Assembly (NCBI GenBank): GCA_023131225.1
Contig: JAGLZW010000013.1
Location: 1-64,000 of the forward strand
Direction of reading: 5' to 3'
DNA: 64,000 bases
Source of the DNA: Candidatus Bathyarchaeota archaeon
GTDB taxonomy: Archaea; Thermoproteota; Bathyarchaeia; Bathyarchaeales; SOJC01
Both the position numbers and the translations under genes were made by a program. Below, piece after piece: positions 7,314-55,506 of this stretch. Position 1 is the stretch's first letter; each line of letters opens with the position of its first letter. A model generated the notes under the pieces. That model searched no databases. It was not told the origin of the DNA and was given only the letters and a program-made list of their open reading frames with translations.

Positions 7314-8468
7314 TTGGGAGAAGTTGCTATTGTTGGTATCGGATGCACAGGTTTCAAGTCGGTTATGCCAGACATATCTTACAAAGAAATGATGTTCGAA
7401 GCTGCAACAAGAGCTTATCAAGATGCTGGAAACATTAGTCCTCGCAAAGACATCGACGCCTTTATCTCAGTTGCTGAAGACTACTGGGAAGGCTTCAGCA
7501 TATTCGACGAATTCGTTCCAGACCAAATGGGCGCCGTACTGCGGCATTTGTTTACGGTTTCAGGCGACAGTATCATAGGGTTAGCAACGGCCTACATGCT
7601 CATCAAAACAGGACACTTCGAAGTAGTCGCGCTGGAATCACATGGCAAGCCTTCAGACATACTCACCCTATATGATATTGTTTCATTTGCAATGGACCCT
7701 ATACTTAATAGACCGCTCGGAGGACACCCATTTTACGTTGCAGGCATGGAAATGAACCGCTTCCTCTGCACGACAGGCACCACTAAAGAACAATGTGCAA
7801 TGGTCGTGTCAAAGAACAAAAGAAACGCGCTGGGCAACCCGTTGGCCGCTTATGGAGCAGACGTCGATATTGAAGATGCACTATGTTCTGATCCATACTT
7901 TCATCCTTTGAATCGACTTGACATTAGTCAACCTGCAGACGGCGGTATCGTAATGGTGCTGGCGTCAGATGAAGTCGCCACGAAACTCAACGACAACCCG
8001 GTCTGGGTGAGAGGTGTGGGCTGGGCATGTGAGACGCCTTCGCTAGAAACCAGATGCTGGAGTGAAGCAGTTTATGCGCGAATCGCCGCGGAAATGGCGT
8101 ACAAGAAGGCGGGAATAAATACTCCGAGCAAAGAGGTTGACTTTGCCGAAGTAGACGACCTATTTTCTTACAAGGAACTTCAGCACATGGAAGCGCTTAA
8201 GCTCTGTAGAACTGGTAAAGCAGGTAAACTAACTGAAGAAGGCATAACTCAGATTGATGGCTATCTTCCTATAAACCCTTCAGGGGGAATACTGGGAATG
8301 GGTTGGGCATTAGAGGCATCTGGCTTGCAGCGTTTGCTGGAGGTTGTTCTGCAACTCCGAGGAGAAGCAGGAAGTAGGCAATTGGCAGATGTGGAAGTTG
8401 GGGTAGCACAATCGTGGCGCGGAGTTCCAACAGCTACTGGTGCCGTTGCGGTTTTAAGTAATTGTTAG
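7314..8468 (+). CDS. Thiolase-fold protein lacking catalytic Cys/His (subunit 1)
   Basis: 384 residues; TTG start with GAGGTG upstream. It has the two-half thiolase fold of the archaeal acetyl-CoA acetyltransferase/SCP-x family. The catalytic signatures are changed: the segment where the nucleophilic Cys should lie reads TVSGDSIIG, the usual HDCF reads DDLF, and the usual GHP of the C-terminal loop reads GMGW. A Claisen condensation by the normal mechanism is therefore unlikely. It heads a tight operon with a second thiolase-fold protein and two DUF35 proteins. Thiolase-like retro-aldolases (Ltp2 with a DUF35 partner in steroid degradation) are a precedent; the substrate here is unknown. Confidence 0.8.
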   Translation: MGEVAIVGIGCTGFKSVMPDISYKEMMFEAATRAYQDAGNISPRKDIDAFISVAEDYWEGFSIFDEFVPDQMGAVLRHLFTVSGDSIIGLATAYMLIKTGHFEVVALESHGKPSDILTLYDIVSFAMDPILNRPLGGHPFYVAGMEMNRFLCTTGTTKEQCAMVVSKNKRNALGNPLAAYGADVDIEDALCSDPYFHPLNRLDISQPADGGIVMVLASDEVATKLNDNPVWVRGVGWACETPSLETRCWSEAVYARIAAEMAYKKAGINTPSKEVDFAEVDDLFSYKELQHMEALKLCRTGKAGKLTEEGITQIDGYLPINPSGGILGMGWALEASGLQRLLEVVLQLRGEAGSRQLADVEVGVAQSWRGVPTATGAVAVLSNC

Positions 8469-8477
8469 AGGTGAAAA

Positions 8478-9650
8478 ATGAAAATGTTTGGAAAGAAAAG
8501 AGTTGCAGTTATAGGCGCAGGCATGACGTTGTTTAGGCGAAACTTGAAAGAAACAGGTAAAGAGCTGTCTTGGGAAGCCTCTAAAATGGCTTTGGACCAA
8601 GCTGGGCTTGAGCTGAAGGACATGCAGAGTGTCGTCATGGGGACAGCTCCGGACGCTTTTGACGGGGTCCATATGAAGGGAGAATATTTGGCCGATGGTG
8701 CAGGGGCGTGGCGGAAACCTTACTCAAGAGTGTTTGTTGGCGGTGGAACTGGAGTCTTTGCGGTTAACGCGGGTTGGTGGCATGTTGCTTCAGGTCAGTT
8801 TGACACTTGCTTGGTTGTGGGAGAGGAGAAAATGTCTTCTTGTTATCCGCATCCAGCATATGCCTTCACAACAATCTTTGACCCGATCTACAGCAGACCG
8901 CTAGGTGTAACGTTGATTTGGATATTTGCTCTTGAAATGCATAGGTACATGCATGTTCATGGCATAACAAAGGAGGAAATTGCGCTAGTTTCAGTGAAGA
9001 ACAAACGTAACGCTTTAGATCATCCATGTGCGCAGTTGGGCGCTAACATCACGGTTGAAGACGTGCTTAACTCAGAGATTATGTGCTGGCCGGTTCAGAG
9101 ACTTGACATCAGCCCAACGAGCGATGGTGCAGCTGCGTTAGTTTTGGCTTCTGAAGATGTTGCCAAAAAACTTACGGATAACCCAGTTTGGATTGACGGT
9201 GCGGGCTGGTGCATTGACTCAACCTTCTGGACAAACCGCGACCTTTACTATCCTAAGTACGTGCAATGTGCGGCTCAGATGGCTTACAAGATGGCAGGAA
9301 TCAAAAACCCACCGAAAGAAATCGACGTCGCAGAAGTCTACGACCCATTCGACTATAAAGAACTACATCACATGGAAGGCCTAATGCTCTGCCGCAAAGG
9401 ACAAGCCGCGAAACTGACAGCAGACGGCGTGACTCAAAGAGACGGAGATTTGCCAATAAACCCGTCAGGCGGCTTACTAGGTGTTGGCAATCCCATTGCT
9501 GCAGCAGGTACAATGAAATGCTGCGAAATCTTCTGGCAACTGCGAGGCGAAGCCGGCAAAAGACAAGTGAAAGGTGACCCAAGAACAGGATTAGCGCAGG
9601 CTTGGGGTGACCTAATGCAGTACGGCTCCGTCGTAATAATGAGGAGTTGA
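8478..9650 (+). CDS. Thiolase-fold protein, retro-aldolase-like (subunit 2)
   Basis: 390 residues; ATG preceded by GAGGTG, 9 bases after the previous stop. It is a paralogue of the upstream gene with the same domain order. The nucleophile position falls in GGGTGVFAV (no Cys), the usual HDCF reads YDPF, and GHP reads GNP. Tyr in place of the active-site His recalls the thiolase-like aldolase Ltp2, which acts with a DUF35 partner. The C-terminal GEAGKRQV-type segment is conserved as in archaeal thiolases. It probably forms a hetero-oligomer with subunit 1 and the DUF35 proteins and acts on an acyl-CoA. The aldolase role is inferred. Confidence 0.8.
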   Translation: MKMFGKKRVAVIGAGMTLFRRNLKETGKELSWEASKMALDQAGLELKDMQSVVMGTAPDAFDGVHMKGEYLADGAGAWRKPYSRVFVGGGTGVFAVNAGWWHVASGQFDTCLVVGEEKMSSCYPHPAYAFTTIFDPIYSRPLGVTLIWIFALEMHRYMHVHGITKEEIALVSVKNKRNALDHPCAQLGANITVEDVLNSEIMCWPVQRLDISPTSDGAAALVLASEDVAKKLTDNPVWIDGAGWCIDSTFWTNRDLYYPKYVQCAAQMAYKMAGIKNPPKEIDVAEVYDPFDYKELHHMEGLMLCRKGQAAKLTADGVTQRDGDLPINPSGGLLGVGNPIAAAGTMKCCEIFWQLRGEAGKRQVKGDPRTGLAQAWGDLMQYGSVVIMRS

Positions 9651-9656
9651 GAAAAC

Positions 9657-10175
9657 ATGAGTGAAAAGATTAAGCATTTTCCAGGCGAACCATTGAAAAG
9701 CAGCGACATAAGAGACGGCAAAATCCCAGCTGTAAAGCATCACCCCAACATCAAGTATTTGTGGAGCGCAGGCGTTGCAATGAGCCGATTCTTAGAAGGA
9801 ATGAAAAAAGGCAAAATCGTAGGCTCCACCTGCAAGAAATGCAGTCGGATCATGGTCCCTCCTAGAGCTTTCTGTGAACAATGCTTCAAGCCAACCGACG
9901 GATATACATATGTAAAGGATACAGGCACAATCAACACTTGGTCAGCCTCCTACGTTGCAGGAGACGCTAGCCGAATAAAGGAGCCAATACTAGTCGCGGT
10001 TATTGATTTAGATGGGGCGTCAAAGGGAATGGGAATACTGCACCTGCTAGGTGAAATCGACGATTGGAAACAAATAAAGTTCGGCATGAAAGTCAAAGCT
10101 GTCTGGAAGCCTCCAGAAGAACGAACTGGCGCAATCACAGATATCAAGTATTTCCGACCCCTCAGGGAGGGCTAA
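9657..10175 (+). CDS. DUF35 zinc-ribbon/OB-fold acyl-CoA-associated protein 1
   Basis: 172 residues. An N-terminal helix is followed by a rubredoxin-like zinc ribbon (CKKC...CEQC, about 59-75) and an OB-fold (about 80-165) ending in the typical ERTG...I..IKYF motif. DUF35 proteins bridge thiolase-fold enzymes and shuttle acyl-CoA, as in the archaeal thiolase/HMG-CoA synthase complex and the Ltp2 aldolase complex. It starts 6 bases after the thiolase-fold subunit 2, so the two are surely co-translated. Confidence 0.88.
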   Translation: MSEKIKHFPGEPLKSSDIRDGKIPAVKHHPNIKYLWSAGVAMSRFLEGMKKGKIVGSTCKKCSRIMVPPRAFCEQCFKPTDGYTYVKDTGTINTWSASYVAGDASRIKEPILVAVIDLDGASKGMGILHLLGEIDDWKQIKFGMKVKAVWKPPEERTGAITDIKYFRPLREG

Positions 10176-52006: not shown

Positions 52007-52044
52007 GCTCTTTTGTTATTTGAGTATAGGTTATAAAAGAAACT

Positions 52045-53706
52045 TTGGAGAATATAGTTTTCGGAGAGGTTGCTGTGACTGGCTCTAATTTAGTTCTGCC
52101 TTATGCTACAGGAGATAGCGGCAGAAAGACATGTTTTTCTGAGGCTATGGAAGTTGCGGCACTCATTTGCATTACTGAAGCAGAGCGGAAAAAGAAGCAG
52201 GGACTTCTTGGAGGAGCAGCAGAAACTCTTACCTTTCTCTCCAAACTTTATTATCCTCTTTGGGCAATTCCTTGGGAAAAAAACTGCTTGCTGATAGATG
52301 GAATGGGAACCGTTTCAGACAATATCCTATACTTTAAACCGCCTGACGTGGAAGCTTTTATTGAGCATTTAAGGAGAAGTGCTACAGTTCAAGAATTATA
52401 TCACAGCACTTTAAGAAGCCACCGTGAAACTTTTTCTGGATTCACCTCCCAAACAGAAATTCCCATAGAGGGATTCATTACAGAGAAAGAACTGTTATCC
52501 GACATGCTAGCATTCATAAAAAACAGCCCAGCAAAGATTACCAGTTCAGACTTAAAGCCCACTTCATCAATACAACCCAAAATTGACAAGGAAAACGCGG
52601 CTAAAATTAGCGAAAAAGTTCTGGGCCACTACAGCAAGCTCCAGTCGGAAATAAAAGGTTTGCAATTTGCAATTGACACCGTGAGCGAAGAAACGAAGAC
52701 ACATGTTGACAAGCTTCGGCAAGAATTAGAGCAAATTCGAGAAAAATATGAAGACAAGATTTCTACCGTTAGGACAGAGGTCGAGAAGAGAAAAGAAGAA
52801 TTGGAAAAAGAGCGGGACAAGAAAATAGAAAAAATAACTGTAGCTAACGAAAAAGAAGCAAATGTAAGGCTTACAGAACGTAAAAAATGGGAGCGAGAAC
52901 TACTAAGACTTGAACAAAACAAAAGCGAATATGAAAAAAGGAAGGAGATGCGGAAGCGGAAAAACGACGAAATTGGGGAGGCCCGATGGGATGCCAGACT
53001 TCGAGATGTTCAAAATCGAATTTCAACCGTGAAGGGAAAAATTAAGGCTCTCTCAGAGTTTATCAATCGAAGCAACAAAGAAGCAGAAAAAACAACAAAG
53101 AATCTGCACGGGACCTACCGGAAGTTAATAGACGAAGAAAATTGGAAAATCATAGATTTGGAAAATCTACGTGACTCAGAGGTTGAGAAGAAGGGAAAAG
53201 AGATAGAGACGCTGCAGCGAGAAACACTGACCATCACAGATAAAATTGAGAGACTAATCGAACAGAAAAGAGAGCGTTGCTCAATTCTTAAAGAAGCTAC
53301 CATTCCTTGGAAAACTGAAAACCTCACTTTGATTCATGTACCCTTCTACTTAATTCAATACGCAGCTGAGAAAAAGAAAAGATACTGTCTTCGCCCACCT
53401 GTTGTTGCAAGAGGGCGCGAGGGAGTTGCGATGAAGATTCGCTCGTTCGTGAAAAAAGCAAATATTAACACCCTTCTGAAACCCCGCTCCAAAGCCCTAG
53501 AGAAAATGCTGAACTCTCTTGAAGAGAAGCTAAAAAGCGACAAGGGAGTTAAAAGAAAACTAGACCAACTTGGCACGTCACACAACCTGTTAACGTCTGC
53601 AGACTTTAAAGAAAAAGTGAAAAAAGGCATAGAAGAGCTTGAAGTTGAAGGTTGGATCAAGCCAGAAGAAAAAGCATCCATAATGAACACCCTTTCAGCA
53701 AACTAA
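52045..53706 (+). CDS. Long coiled-coil protein paired with MCM-like ATPase
   Basis: 553 residues; TTG start. The N-terminal globular part (about 1-130) contains the YPLWAIPWEKNCLLIDG segment. A charged coiled coil spans about 195-410, then a C-terminal globular domain (FYLIQYAAEKKKRYCLRPP, about 430-550). No catalytic motif is seen. The next gene, 21 bases on, is an AAA+ ATPase. A structural or nucleic-acid-tethering role is a guess. Confidence 0.72.
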   Translation: MENIVFGEVAVTGSNLVLPYATGDSGRKTCFSEAMEVAALICITEAERKKKQGLLGGAAETLTFLSKLYYPLWAIPWEKNCLLIDGMGTVSDNILYFKPPDVEAFIEHLRRSATVQELYHSTLRSHRETFSGFTSQTEIPIEGFITEKELLSDMLAFIKNSPAKITSSDLKPTSSIQPKIDKENAAKISEKVLGHYSKLQSEIKGLQFAIDTVSEETKTHVDKLRQELEQIREKYEDKISTVRTEVEKRKEELEKERDKKIEKITVANEKEANVRLTERKKWERELLRLEQNKSEYEKRKEMRKRKNDEIGEARWDARLRDVQNRISTVKGKIKALSEFINRSNKEAEKTTKNLHGTYRKLIDEENWKIIDLENLRDSEVEKKGKEIETLQRETLTITDKIERLIEQKRERCSILKEATIPWKTENLTLIHVPFYLIQYAAEKKKRYCLRPPVVARGREGVAMKIRSFVKKANINTLLKPRSKALEKMLNSLEEKLKSDKGVKRKLDQLGTSHNLLTSADFKEKVKKGIEELEVEGWIKPEEKASIMNTLSAN

Positions 53707-53727
53707 TCCCCTTGCGAATAATTAAAA

Positions 53728-55506
53728 ATGGGAAAACCAACTTCTTTCGGCGAGTTGAGAAAAATGCGAAACAACAAAGTTGTTGACCGTAAACTCCTGC
53801 TTAAACGTGTATTTTCAAGAAGCAAGCTTTTCCAAATAGGAAAAGCGCTAGGCGTTCCCTATTTTATCAATTTTCATAGCGAATGGGACATGGACTATGA
53901 CAGAGCAGCTTTTGAAATTGCTTCCAATATAAGCGATGTGCAGCTCGAGAAAGTTTTCAGCAATTATGAACCCCGTAGATGGGAAGTTTTCAGAGGTCAA
54001 TATTATACATTTGAGAATGGTAAATTTCGACTTGAGGGCTATTGGAAAACAATTCAAGCAGCGATTGCTCAGGCCAAGAAAAAATTCGGAAAAAACTGCA
54101 TTGCTGTTTTGAAGTGTCTGGTGAATTCTGGGAAGGGTTGCAGCCTTAAAGAGATTAGACAGAATCTTCCAGAAAGCGCGGATCCTTCCCCAATTTTATC
54201 GGATTTAGAGAAGCTGAAGGTTATAGTGACTTCTTATAGGAGCAAAGATTTTCAGGAGTGGACAGTGTTGGAAGAAACCTCTCCGATAATCCAGTTAGAG
54301 TTGGGGTTAGCTCCTAGGGAGGCTAGAAAAGCAGCTTTCGTCGTCAATGTTCCTGCAAAAGCTGACATAATAGATGAAGAACGCCAAATTGTCGGGGAGA
54401 TGGACAGGGAGTTGGACGATTACTTAAATGACTTGTTCAAATATCGAGTTGATGAGGCGGTTAGGTTTGGCAAATCTTTTTCTATCTCTCGCCTGGCCGG
54501 CTATCTGAAGGATCTTTTTGGTCCAGTTCTCTATTTTGATAGTTTACTTAGCATCACTCAACAATACGGGTTGGCTGATGTTGAGATTGTTCATAGTGAG
54601 GGTCGAACTGGGATGCGAACAGGGTGGAATCTTTCTCTTTTCGGTGAACCAGGCACTGGTAAGAGCTTTTCAGTTAGGGACATGATTCTTGGGAAGCTTG
54701 ATGCTAAAATCCCACCTCACGGAATTCCAGGACGCAACCGTTACGCTGGAGGTATGACACCCGCCAGGTTCATTCGCATAGGTCAAGCTTACTCTGGAAG
54801 AGTTTTTAATTTTATTATTCCTGAATTTAATGACTGGTTTAAATACAAAGGCATGGTAGAGCTATTGAAACTTGCCATGGAACGAGGTGAAATTAAATAC
54901 GAGACGCATCGCGAAGTCATTGGTCCTTATCGTTTCCACAGTTTCTTCAGCGTAAACTATAATGTAGCAGCGTTTGGCAGAGGTTATGAGCTGACTATTC
55001 AAGACCCAAACTTCAACGCAATCGAAGACCGCATGCTTTGTCGCCTACATAGACTTACTAAGCAGCGTTTTGTAGAAATTGCAGAAAGTCAAATGCGGTT
55101 GGTCTTTGGAGAAATCGACATTGAAGAAGGAGCACAACAGATACGGGACCATTTGTCGCTGGTTTATGCGGCTGAAACCAAACATCCTTTGGCACAGGGT
55201 AAATTTTCGCCAAAACCTGTTATGCTTACTCCAAAAGCTCAAGAGATGTTGATGAGAGCTAGAAAAGCCATCTTAGCGGAAATTCCGCGAAAGGTTGTTC
55301 GTTTTTCTGCTAGATTGGAAGACCGTGCTATCCGTTTTGCCTGTGCCGCTTCGCTTCTCAGCTATTTTCAGTCAGATCTCGACTTCATTCCTGTTAGTGA
55401 AGACGCTTTGAAGTACGCTATTCAGCTTTATGTAGAAGAAGCCTCAGTAAGGTCGCAGGAAGAGTTTGTACCTGAATCTGTTTTGGGGAAACTTGCTTTA
55501 GGATAG
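53728..55506 (+). CDS. MCM-like AAA+ ATPase with winged-helix domain
   Basis: 592 residues. An N-terminal domain with a winged-helix-like part (about 110-190), then an AAA+ core: Walker A GEPGTGKSF (about 307-315), a Walker B position reading FIIPEFNDW (about 362-370) where the usual Asp is Pro, sensor-1 FSVNYN, and a helical lid (ARLEDRAIRFACAAS). Similar to MCM/dynein-type AAA+ ATPases, without MCM zinc finger or DNA-hairpin insertions visible. It forms a two-gene unit with the coiled-coil protein. Role unknown. Confidence 0.75.
   Translation: MGKPTSFGELRKMRNNKVVDRKLLLKRVFSRSKLFQIGKALGVPYFINFHSEWDMDYDRAAFEIASNISDVQLEKVFSNYEPRRWEVFRGQYYTFENGKFRLEGYWKTIQAAIAQAKKKFGKNCIAVLKCLVNSGKGCSLKEIRQNLPESADPSPILSDLEKLKVIVTSYRSKDFQEWTVLEETSPIIQLELGLAPREARKAAFVVNVPAKADIIDEERQIVGEMDRELDDYLNDLFKYRVDEAVRFGKSFSISRLAGYLKDLFGPVLYFDSLLSITQQYGLADVEIVHSEGRTGMRTGWNLSLFGEPGTGKSFSVRDMILGKLDAKIPPHGIPGRNRYAGGMTPARFIRIGQAYSGRVFNFIIPEFNDWFKYKGMVELLKLAMERGEIKYETHREVIGPYRFHSFFSVNYNVAAFGRGYELTIQDPNFNAIEDRMLCRLHRLTKQRFVEIAESQMRLVFGEIDIEEGAQQIRDHLSLVYAAETKHPLAQGKFSPKPVMLTPKAQEMLMRARKAILAEIPRKVVRFSARLEDRAIRFACAASLLSYFQSDLDFIPVSEDALKYAIQLYVEEASVRSQEEFVPESVLGKLALG

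Follow-up and report, generated by a model that had tools for sequence, protein, structure and literature searches.

A conserved gene pair of Bathyarchaeia encoding a long coiled-coil protein and an MCM-like AAA+ ATPase with an unusual Walker B motif

The window, a stretch of 64,000 nucleotides from a Bathyarchaeia genome of 1.9 Mb, contained, where the earlier note had placed it, a two-gene unit on the plus strand, in which the gene for a long coiled-coil protein was followed, after a gap of 21 bp, by the gene for an MCM-like AAA+ ATPase. The ATPase is probably an active member of an undescribed AAA+ family, judging from its conserved motifs. As the best reading of the pair, to which we give an even chance, we propose a vertically inherited AAA+ machine that engages DNA and carries a coiled-coil adaptor.

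The gene pair and its start site

Homologues of the ATPase were found in 19 of 41 genomes and those of the coiled-coil protein in 37 of 41, which excludes chance open reading frames. In addition, the dN/dS values between two close relatives (G000 and G001) were about 0.46 for the coiled-coil gene and about 0.13 for the ATPase gene, and these values fit purifying selection on both genes, with a stronger effect on the ATPase.

The earlier note had read the coiled-coil gene from TTG 52045. GTG 52075 is the more likely start, because a TATA-like box (TTATAAAAG) and the Shine-Dalgarno-like GGAGAGG fit this position and the homologues begin there; residues 1-11 of the longer reading were also modelled with low confidence by AlphaFold2. 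The TATA-like box is a probable archaeal promoter for both genes (Table 1).

Table 1. Features of the coiled-coil and ATPase unit, in window coordinates
Feature	Position	Strand	Basis or remark
TATA-like box TTATAAAAG	52031..52039	+	Read directly in the sequence; putative promoter function
Shine-Dalgarno-like GGAGAGG, 5' of GTG 52075	52062..52068	+	Sequence; putative function
Coiled-coil protein, clade A, 543 aa from GTG 52075	52075..53706	+	Alternative ORF start TTG 52045
First long helix of the antiparallel hairpin, residues 182-305 of the 553-aa reading	52588..52959	+	AlphaFold2 model
Second long hairpin helix, residues 309-417	52969..53295	+	AlphaFold2 model
MCM-like AAA+ ATPase, 592 aa	53728..55506	+	Homologues, AlphaFold model, Foldseek
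Possible winged helix-turn-helix, ATPase residues 106-180	54043..54267	+	Helix/strand order of the model, weak MarR match
Walker A GEPGTGKS, ATPase residues 306-313	54643..54666	+	Lys312 invariant, 109/109
Walker B NFIIPE, ATPase residues 361-366	54808..54825	+	Pro/Thr for Asp; Glu366 invariant, 109/109
Asn410, sensor-1 candidate	54955..54957	+	N in 107/107 covering; role by analogy to MCM
Arg435, arginine-finger candidate	55030..55032	+	R in 107/107 covering; role by analogy
Arg529, sensor-2 candidate	55312..55314	+	R in 87/87 covering; role by analogy

Family, fold and motifs of the ATPase

The ATPase was covered by no model of Pfam, NCBIfam, PHROG or PADLOC and had no sequence match in the PDB, and our literature search found no description of the family. 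The MCM model of Pfam (PF00493) was not among the matches listed for the ATPase or for 27 of its homologues. The statement of the earlier note that no known system fits stands. At the sequence level, neither a curated family nor a protein of solved structure matched the ATPase, and the comparison with family libraries and PDB sequences placed it in no well-known family with an assigned role.

The structure comparison agreed with the first description of the ATPase as MCM-like. All of the 50 best PDB matches found by Foldseek for its AlphaFold model (pLDDT 84.6) were MCM proteins, with E values down to 1.8e-9, and the TM-score against the isolated ATPase domain of MCM6 was 0.57. A profile comparison with the MCMs of its own and related genomes gave E = 6.5e-4 over the Walker A motif and the stretch next to it. 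A separate canonical MCM, with the Walker B motif CIDE, is encoded in the same genome. A winged helix is also possible in the N-terminal part, where the region was read from the helix and strand order of the model and the MarR profile match was weak (E = 0.034).

The Walker A motif reported at first reading was confirmed as intact. When 109 distinct archaeal and bacterial homologues were compared, its Lys312 as well as Glu366 of Walker B were invariant in all sequences. The proline that had been noticed in place of the Walker B aspartate (FIIPEF) is present and proved to be a family-wide trait, with Pro at this position in 85 homologues, Thr in 24 and Asp in none. Asn410 and Arg435 (covered in 107 sequences) and Arg529 (covered in 87) were conserved in every sequence covering them and are candidates for the sensor-1, arginine-finger and sensor-2 roles, respectively, by analogy. 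Because the whole family lacks the aspartate and its other catalytic residues do not vary, the change does not mark this ATPase as odd or defective, and the motifs speak for an active protein whose Walker B is unusual rather than for a decayed one.

The coiled-coil protein

The AlphaFold2 model of the coiled-coil protein (mean pLDDT 88.9) had two helices, each longer than 100 residues, with a short turn between them, and the helices are thus antiparallel. The predicted shape is a hairpin in which the N- and C-terminal domains share one end. The long coiled coil described earlier was borne out by the model, and the globular ends of that description are predicted to lie side by side rather than one at each tip of a rod.

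The best Foldseek matches of this model in the PDB were mainly the arms of SMC and Rad50 proteins, none of them with E below 0.001, and the protein had no ATPase head. Kinship with SMC proteins was rejected, as the likeness was at the level of the coiled coil only. The head domains alone had no relatives in the PDB or Pfam, and an internal duplication of the N- and C-terminal parts of the head was tested and not found. PADLOC gave weak matches at the coiled-coil level (best E 0.003).

Pairing and inheritance in Bathyarchaeia

The ATPase gene was located directly downstream of the coiled-coil gene in 33 distinct pairs of Bathyarchaeia, several of them with a 4 bp overlap. In the coiled-coil tree of Bathyarchaeia, 41 of the 49 rows of clade A were paired with the ATPase and none of the 28 rows of its sister, clade B; the paired coiled coils all fell within one clade (support 99), and the sampled ATPases paired with them also formed a single clade (support 100). 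Unpaired members of clade A were found in three genomes without the ATPase (G007, G015 and G022), at contig ends (G005 and G016), and in genomes carrying the two genes at separate loci (G032 and G038). In a hand count of the classified genomes, which were also put to a Fisher test and are not phylogenetically independent, 21 had both the clade-A coiled coil and the ATPase, 3 the coiled coil only, 1 the ATPase only and 29 neither, and the contig of the sole ATPase-only genome begins at the ATPase gene. Genus g22 included genomes with both genes at separate loci (G032, G038 and G284) and genomes with neither (G026, G035 and G306); in this genus the two genes were kept or lost together.

The two genes are co-conserved in relatives, and the lack of co-conservation that the earlier note had named as refuting its reading was not seen. 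The link, described there as tight, is one-sided: each family is widespread without the other, and most Bathyarchaeia carry a member of the coiled-coil family without the ATPase (clade B).

A nucleotidyltransferase gene was the common upstream neighbour of the pair in several families, and clade-A coiled-coil genes were often preceded by such a gene. This shared neighbour points to vertical inheritance of the pair in Bathyarchaeia. A third conserved member of the operon was sought and not found, and the neighbours vary by subclade. The ATPase had no match in phages, plasmids or the viral contigs of IMG/VR, and its origin from a mobile element is unsupported.

Additionally, coiled-coil homologues in two families (L230 and L232-L235) were followed by a glycosyltransferase-like gene (MKILYASQSFLPSTGGVSYYL...). 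Distant homologues in another Thermoproteota family (L226-L228, coiled-coil gene near 8100-10060) were located just upstream of ion-transport-like (TrkA-like) genes.

The wider ATPase family and its neighbours

The ATPase family was found in several archaeal phyla and some bacteria. Homologues in Thermofilum and Nitrosocaldus had neither an adjoining coiled coil nor a methyltransferase, and the same was true of Thermoplasmata, judged from mechanical ORF calls. In Desulfurococcales, Korarchaeia, Stahlbacteria, Planctomycetota and a second paralogue of Bathyarchaeia, the ATPase gene adjoined genes for type IIG-like or PglX-like DNA methyltransferases, and this context fell on several branches of the ATPase tree. 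One paralogue adjoined a DpdB/DndB-like gene, and another homologue was near a PDC-S68 candidate defence helicase. Of eight genomes with ATPase relatives not linked to a coiled coil, six had no PglZ, and the other two had it away from the ATPase loci; therefore, the methyltransferase-linked relatives are not canonical BREX systems.

Some members showed features of their own. Two planctomycete ATPases (L070 and L072) had a C-terminal extension of more than 200 residues, in which a short segment reading RNGAAH or RNSAAH is similar to a HEPN motif; the extension had no Pfam match in either protein and no PADLOC match in L072. When 246 genomes from the phylum of the planctomycete were searched, only one further homologue of the ATPase came to light. 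In a Bathyarchaeia paralogue (L060:5216-6601), which sits after a type IIG-like methyltransferase gene, an AN1 zinc finger replaces the long N-terminal part. Another homologue (L266, G480:C351) was the last gene on a short contig that also carries rpoC-like genes and genes for ribosomal proteins.

Proposed function and alternative explanations

That the coiled coil and the ATPase function together is likely, judging from their gene order and inheritance. The ATPase would form a ring that hydrolyses ATP, as its fold, the invariant Walker A, the Walker B glutamate and the sensor and finger candidates suggest, and this ring could engage duplex DNA through its MCM-type core and the possible winged helix near its N terminus. 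The coiled coil, folded as the predicted long hairpin with both terminal domains together, would most likely bind the ring as an adaptor or tether and place the motor on its target, as the gene linkage suggests. With moderate confidence, we take DNA to be the substrate. The idea of the earlier note that the pair may load, move or tether DNA is an inference. For the clade paired with the coiled coil, its vertical inheritance and stable sites favour a role in chromosome maintenance rather than defence, but we put this forward only tentatively. Several points weigh against the preferred reading. The possible winged helix comes from a weak match. AAA+ groups near MCM include ones acting on proteins, and an MCM-type fold is no proof of a DNA substrate. 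Moreover, clade B occurs without the ATPase, as do three members of clade A.

The main rival reading is an anti-invader (defence) system. In it the ATPase would be a motor that clamps DNA or blocks replication, which has been proposed for BrxL in BREX, and the coiled coil would serve as its sensor or adaptor. The methyltransferase-linked homologues, the DpdB/DndB-like gene, the PDC-S68 helicase and the precedent of BrxL (PMC10164562) speak for such a role. However, the paired clade descends vertically, its chromosomal sites are stable and have housekeeping-type genes as neighbours, neither a nuclease nor a methyltransferase is conserved next to it, and PADLOC assigns no defence model to the ATPase and only the weak matches mentioned above to the coiled coil; we consider defence unlikely for this pair. 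It is less probable still that the ATPase remodels proteins like MoxR, with the coiled coil delivering the substrate or being the substrate itself and DNA not involved, since the best structure matches are MCM and not MoxR, the partner is not a VWA protein and the possible winged helix favours DNA. Nevertheless, MoxR/VWA systems share the layout of an AAA+ protein with one dedicated non-enzymatic partner, and the coiled-coil family also occurs without the ATPase, which would be possible for a substrate or a scaffold. The lack of the Walker B aspartate, which normally helps to hold Mg2+ and is kept in the true MCM (CIDE) and BrxL (CFDE), could mean that the ATPase is catalytically dead and at most an ATP-binding scaffold. 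We regard this as very improbable, because all five residues listed in Table 1, from Lys312 and Glu366 to Arg529, are invariant wherever covered, and this aspartate is missing as well from secretion ATPases of the GspE/VirB11 type, which are active.

Taken together, the ATPase family has invariant catalytic residues and lies outside the family libraries searched, and its conserved lack of the Walker B aspartate offers a clean test of the need for this residue. The pairing with a coiled coil and the methyltransferase-linked relatives provide two concrete systems, one of which is possibly a new type of defence. It is conceivable, if rather doubtful, that such MCM-like motors are a reusable module, which a coiled-coil tether directs to the chromosome in Bathyarchaeia, whereas in bacteria and other archaea a DNA methyltransferase turns it into a compact system of two genes for restriction or a BREX-like function.

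Comparison with known systems

SMC and Rad50 proteins share with the coiled-coil protein a long antiparallel hairpin with the N- and C-terminal parts at one end, whereas no ABC-type head or Walker motif was found in the protein or its alignment, and the SMC model scored 16 bits against a cut-off of 729 bits. The arrangement of an AAA+ motor gene beside a partner gene is common to the pair, MoxR-VWA and McrBC systems. In contrast to these systems, the ATPase matched no Pfam AAA+ model over its cut-off, MoxR-type or other, and its partner had no VWA match, and Pfam and PADLOC gave no McrB-type model and no McrC partner for either protein.

BrxL of BREX (PF13337), a restriction factor that binds DNA and belongs to the MCM-like AAA+ proteins (PMC10164562), resembles the ATPase in its MCM-like core, and some relatives of the ATPase are methylase-linked. 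Membership in BrxL was rejected, as the genome carrying the ATPase had no PF13337 match and the profile comparison covered only Walker A, and BrxL keeps the Walker B aspartate. The PglZ gene found at BREX loci was also missing from the loci of ATPase relatives without a linked coiled coil. Finally, although the ATPase differs from the MCM helicase in its N-terminal part, in having no match to the MCM Pfam model and in its Walker B, where all 109 homologues have P or T for the Asp of the hhhhDE pattern and the MCM of the same genome has CIDE, it shares the AAA+ core fold with MCM, its closest match in the PDB, by analogy to which its putative sensor-1, arginine-finger and sensor-2 residues were assigned.
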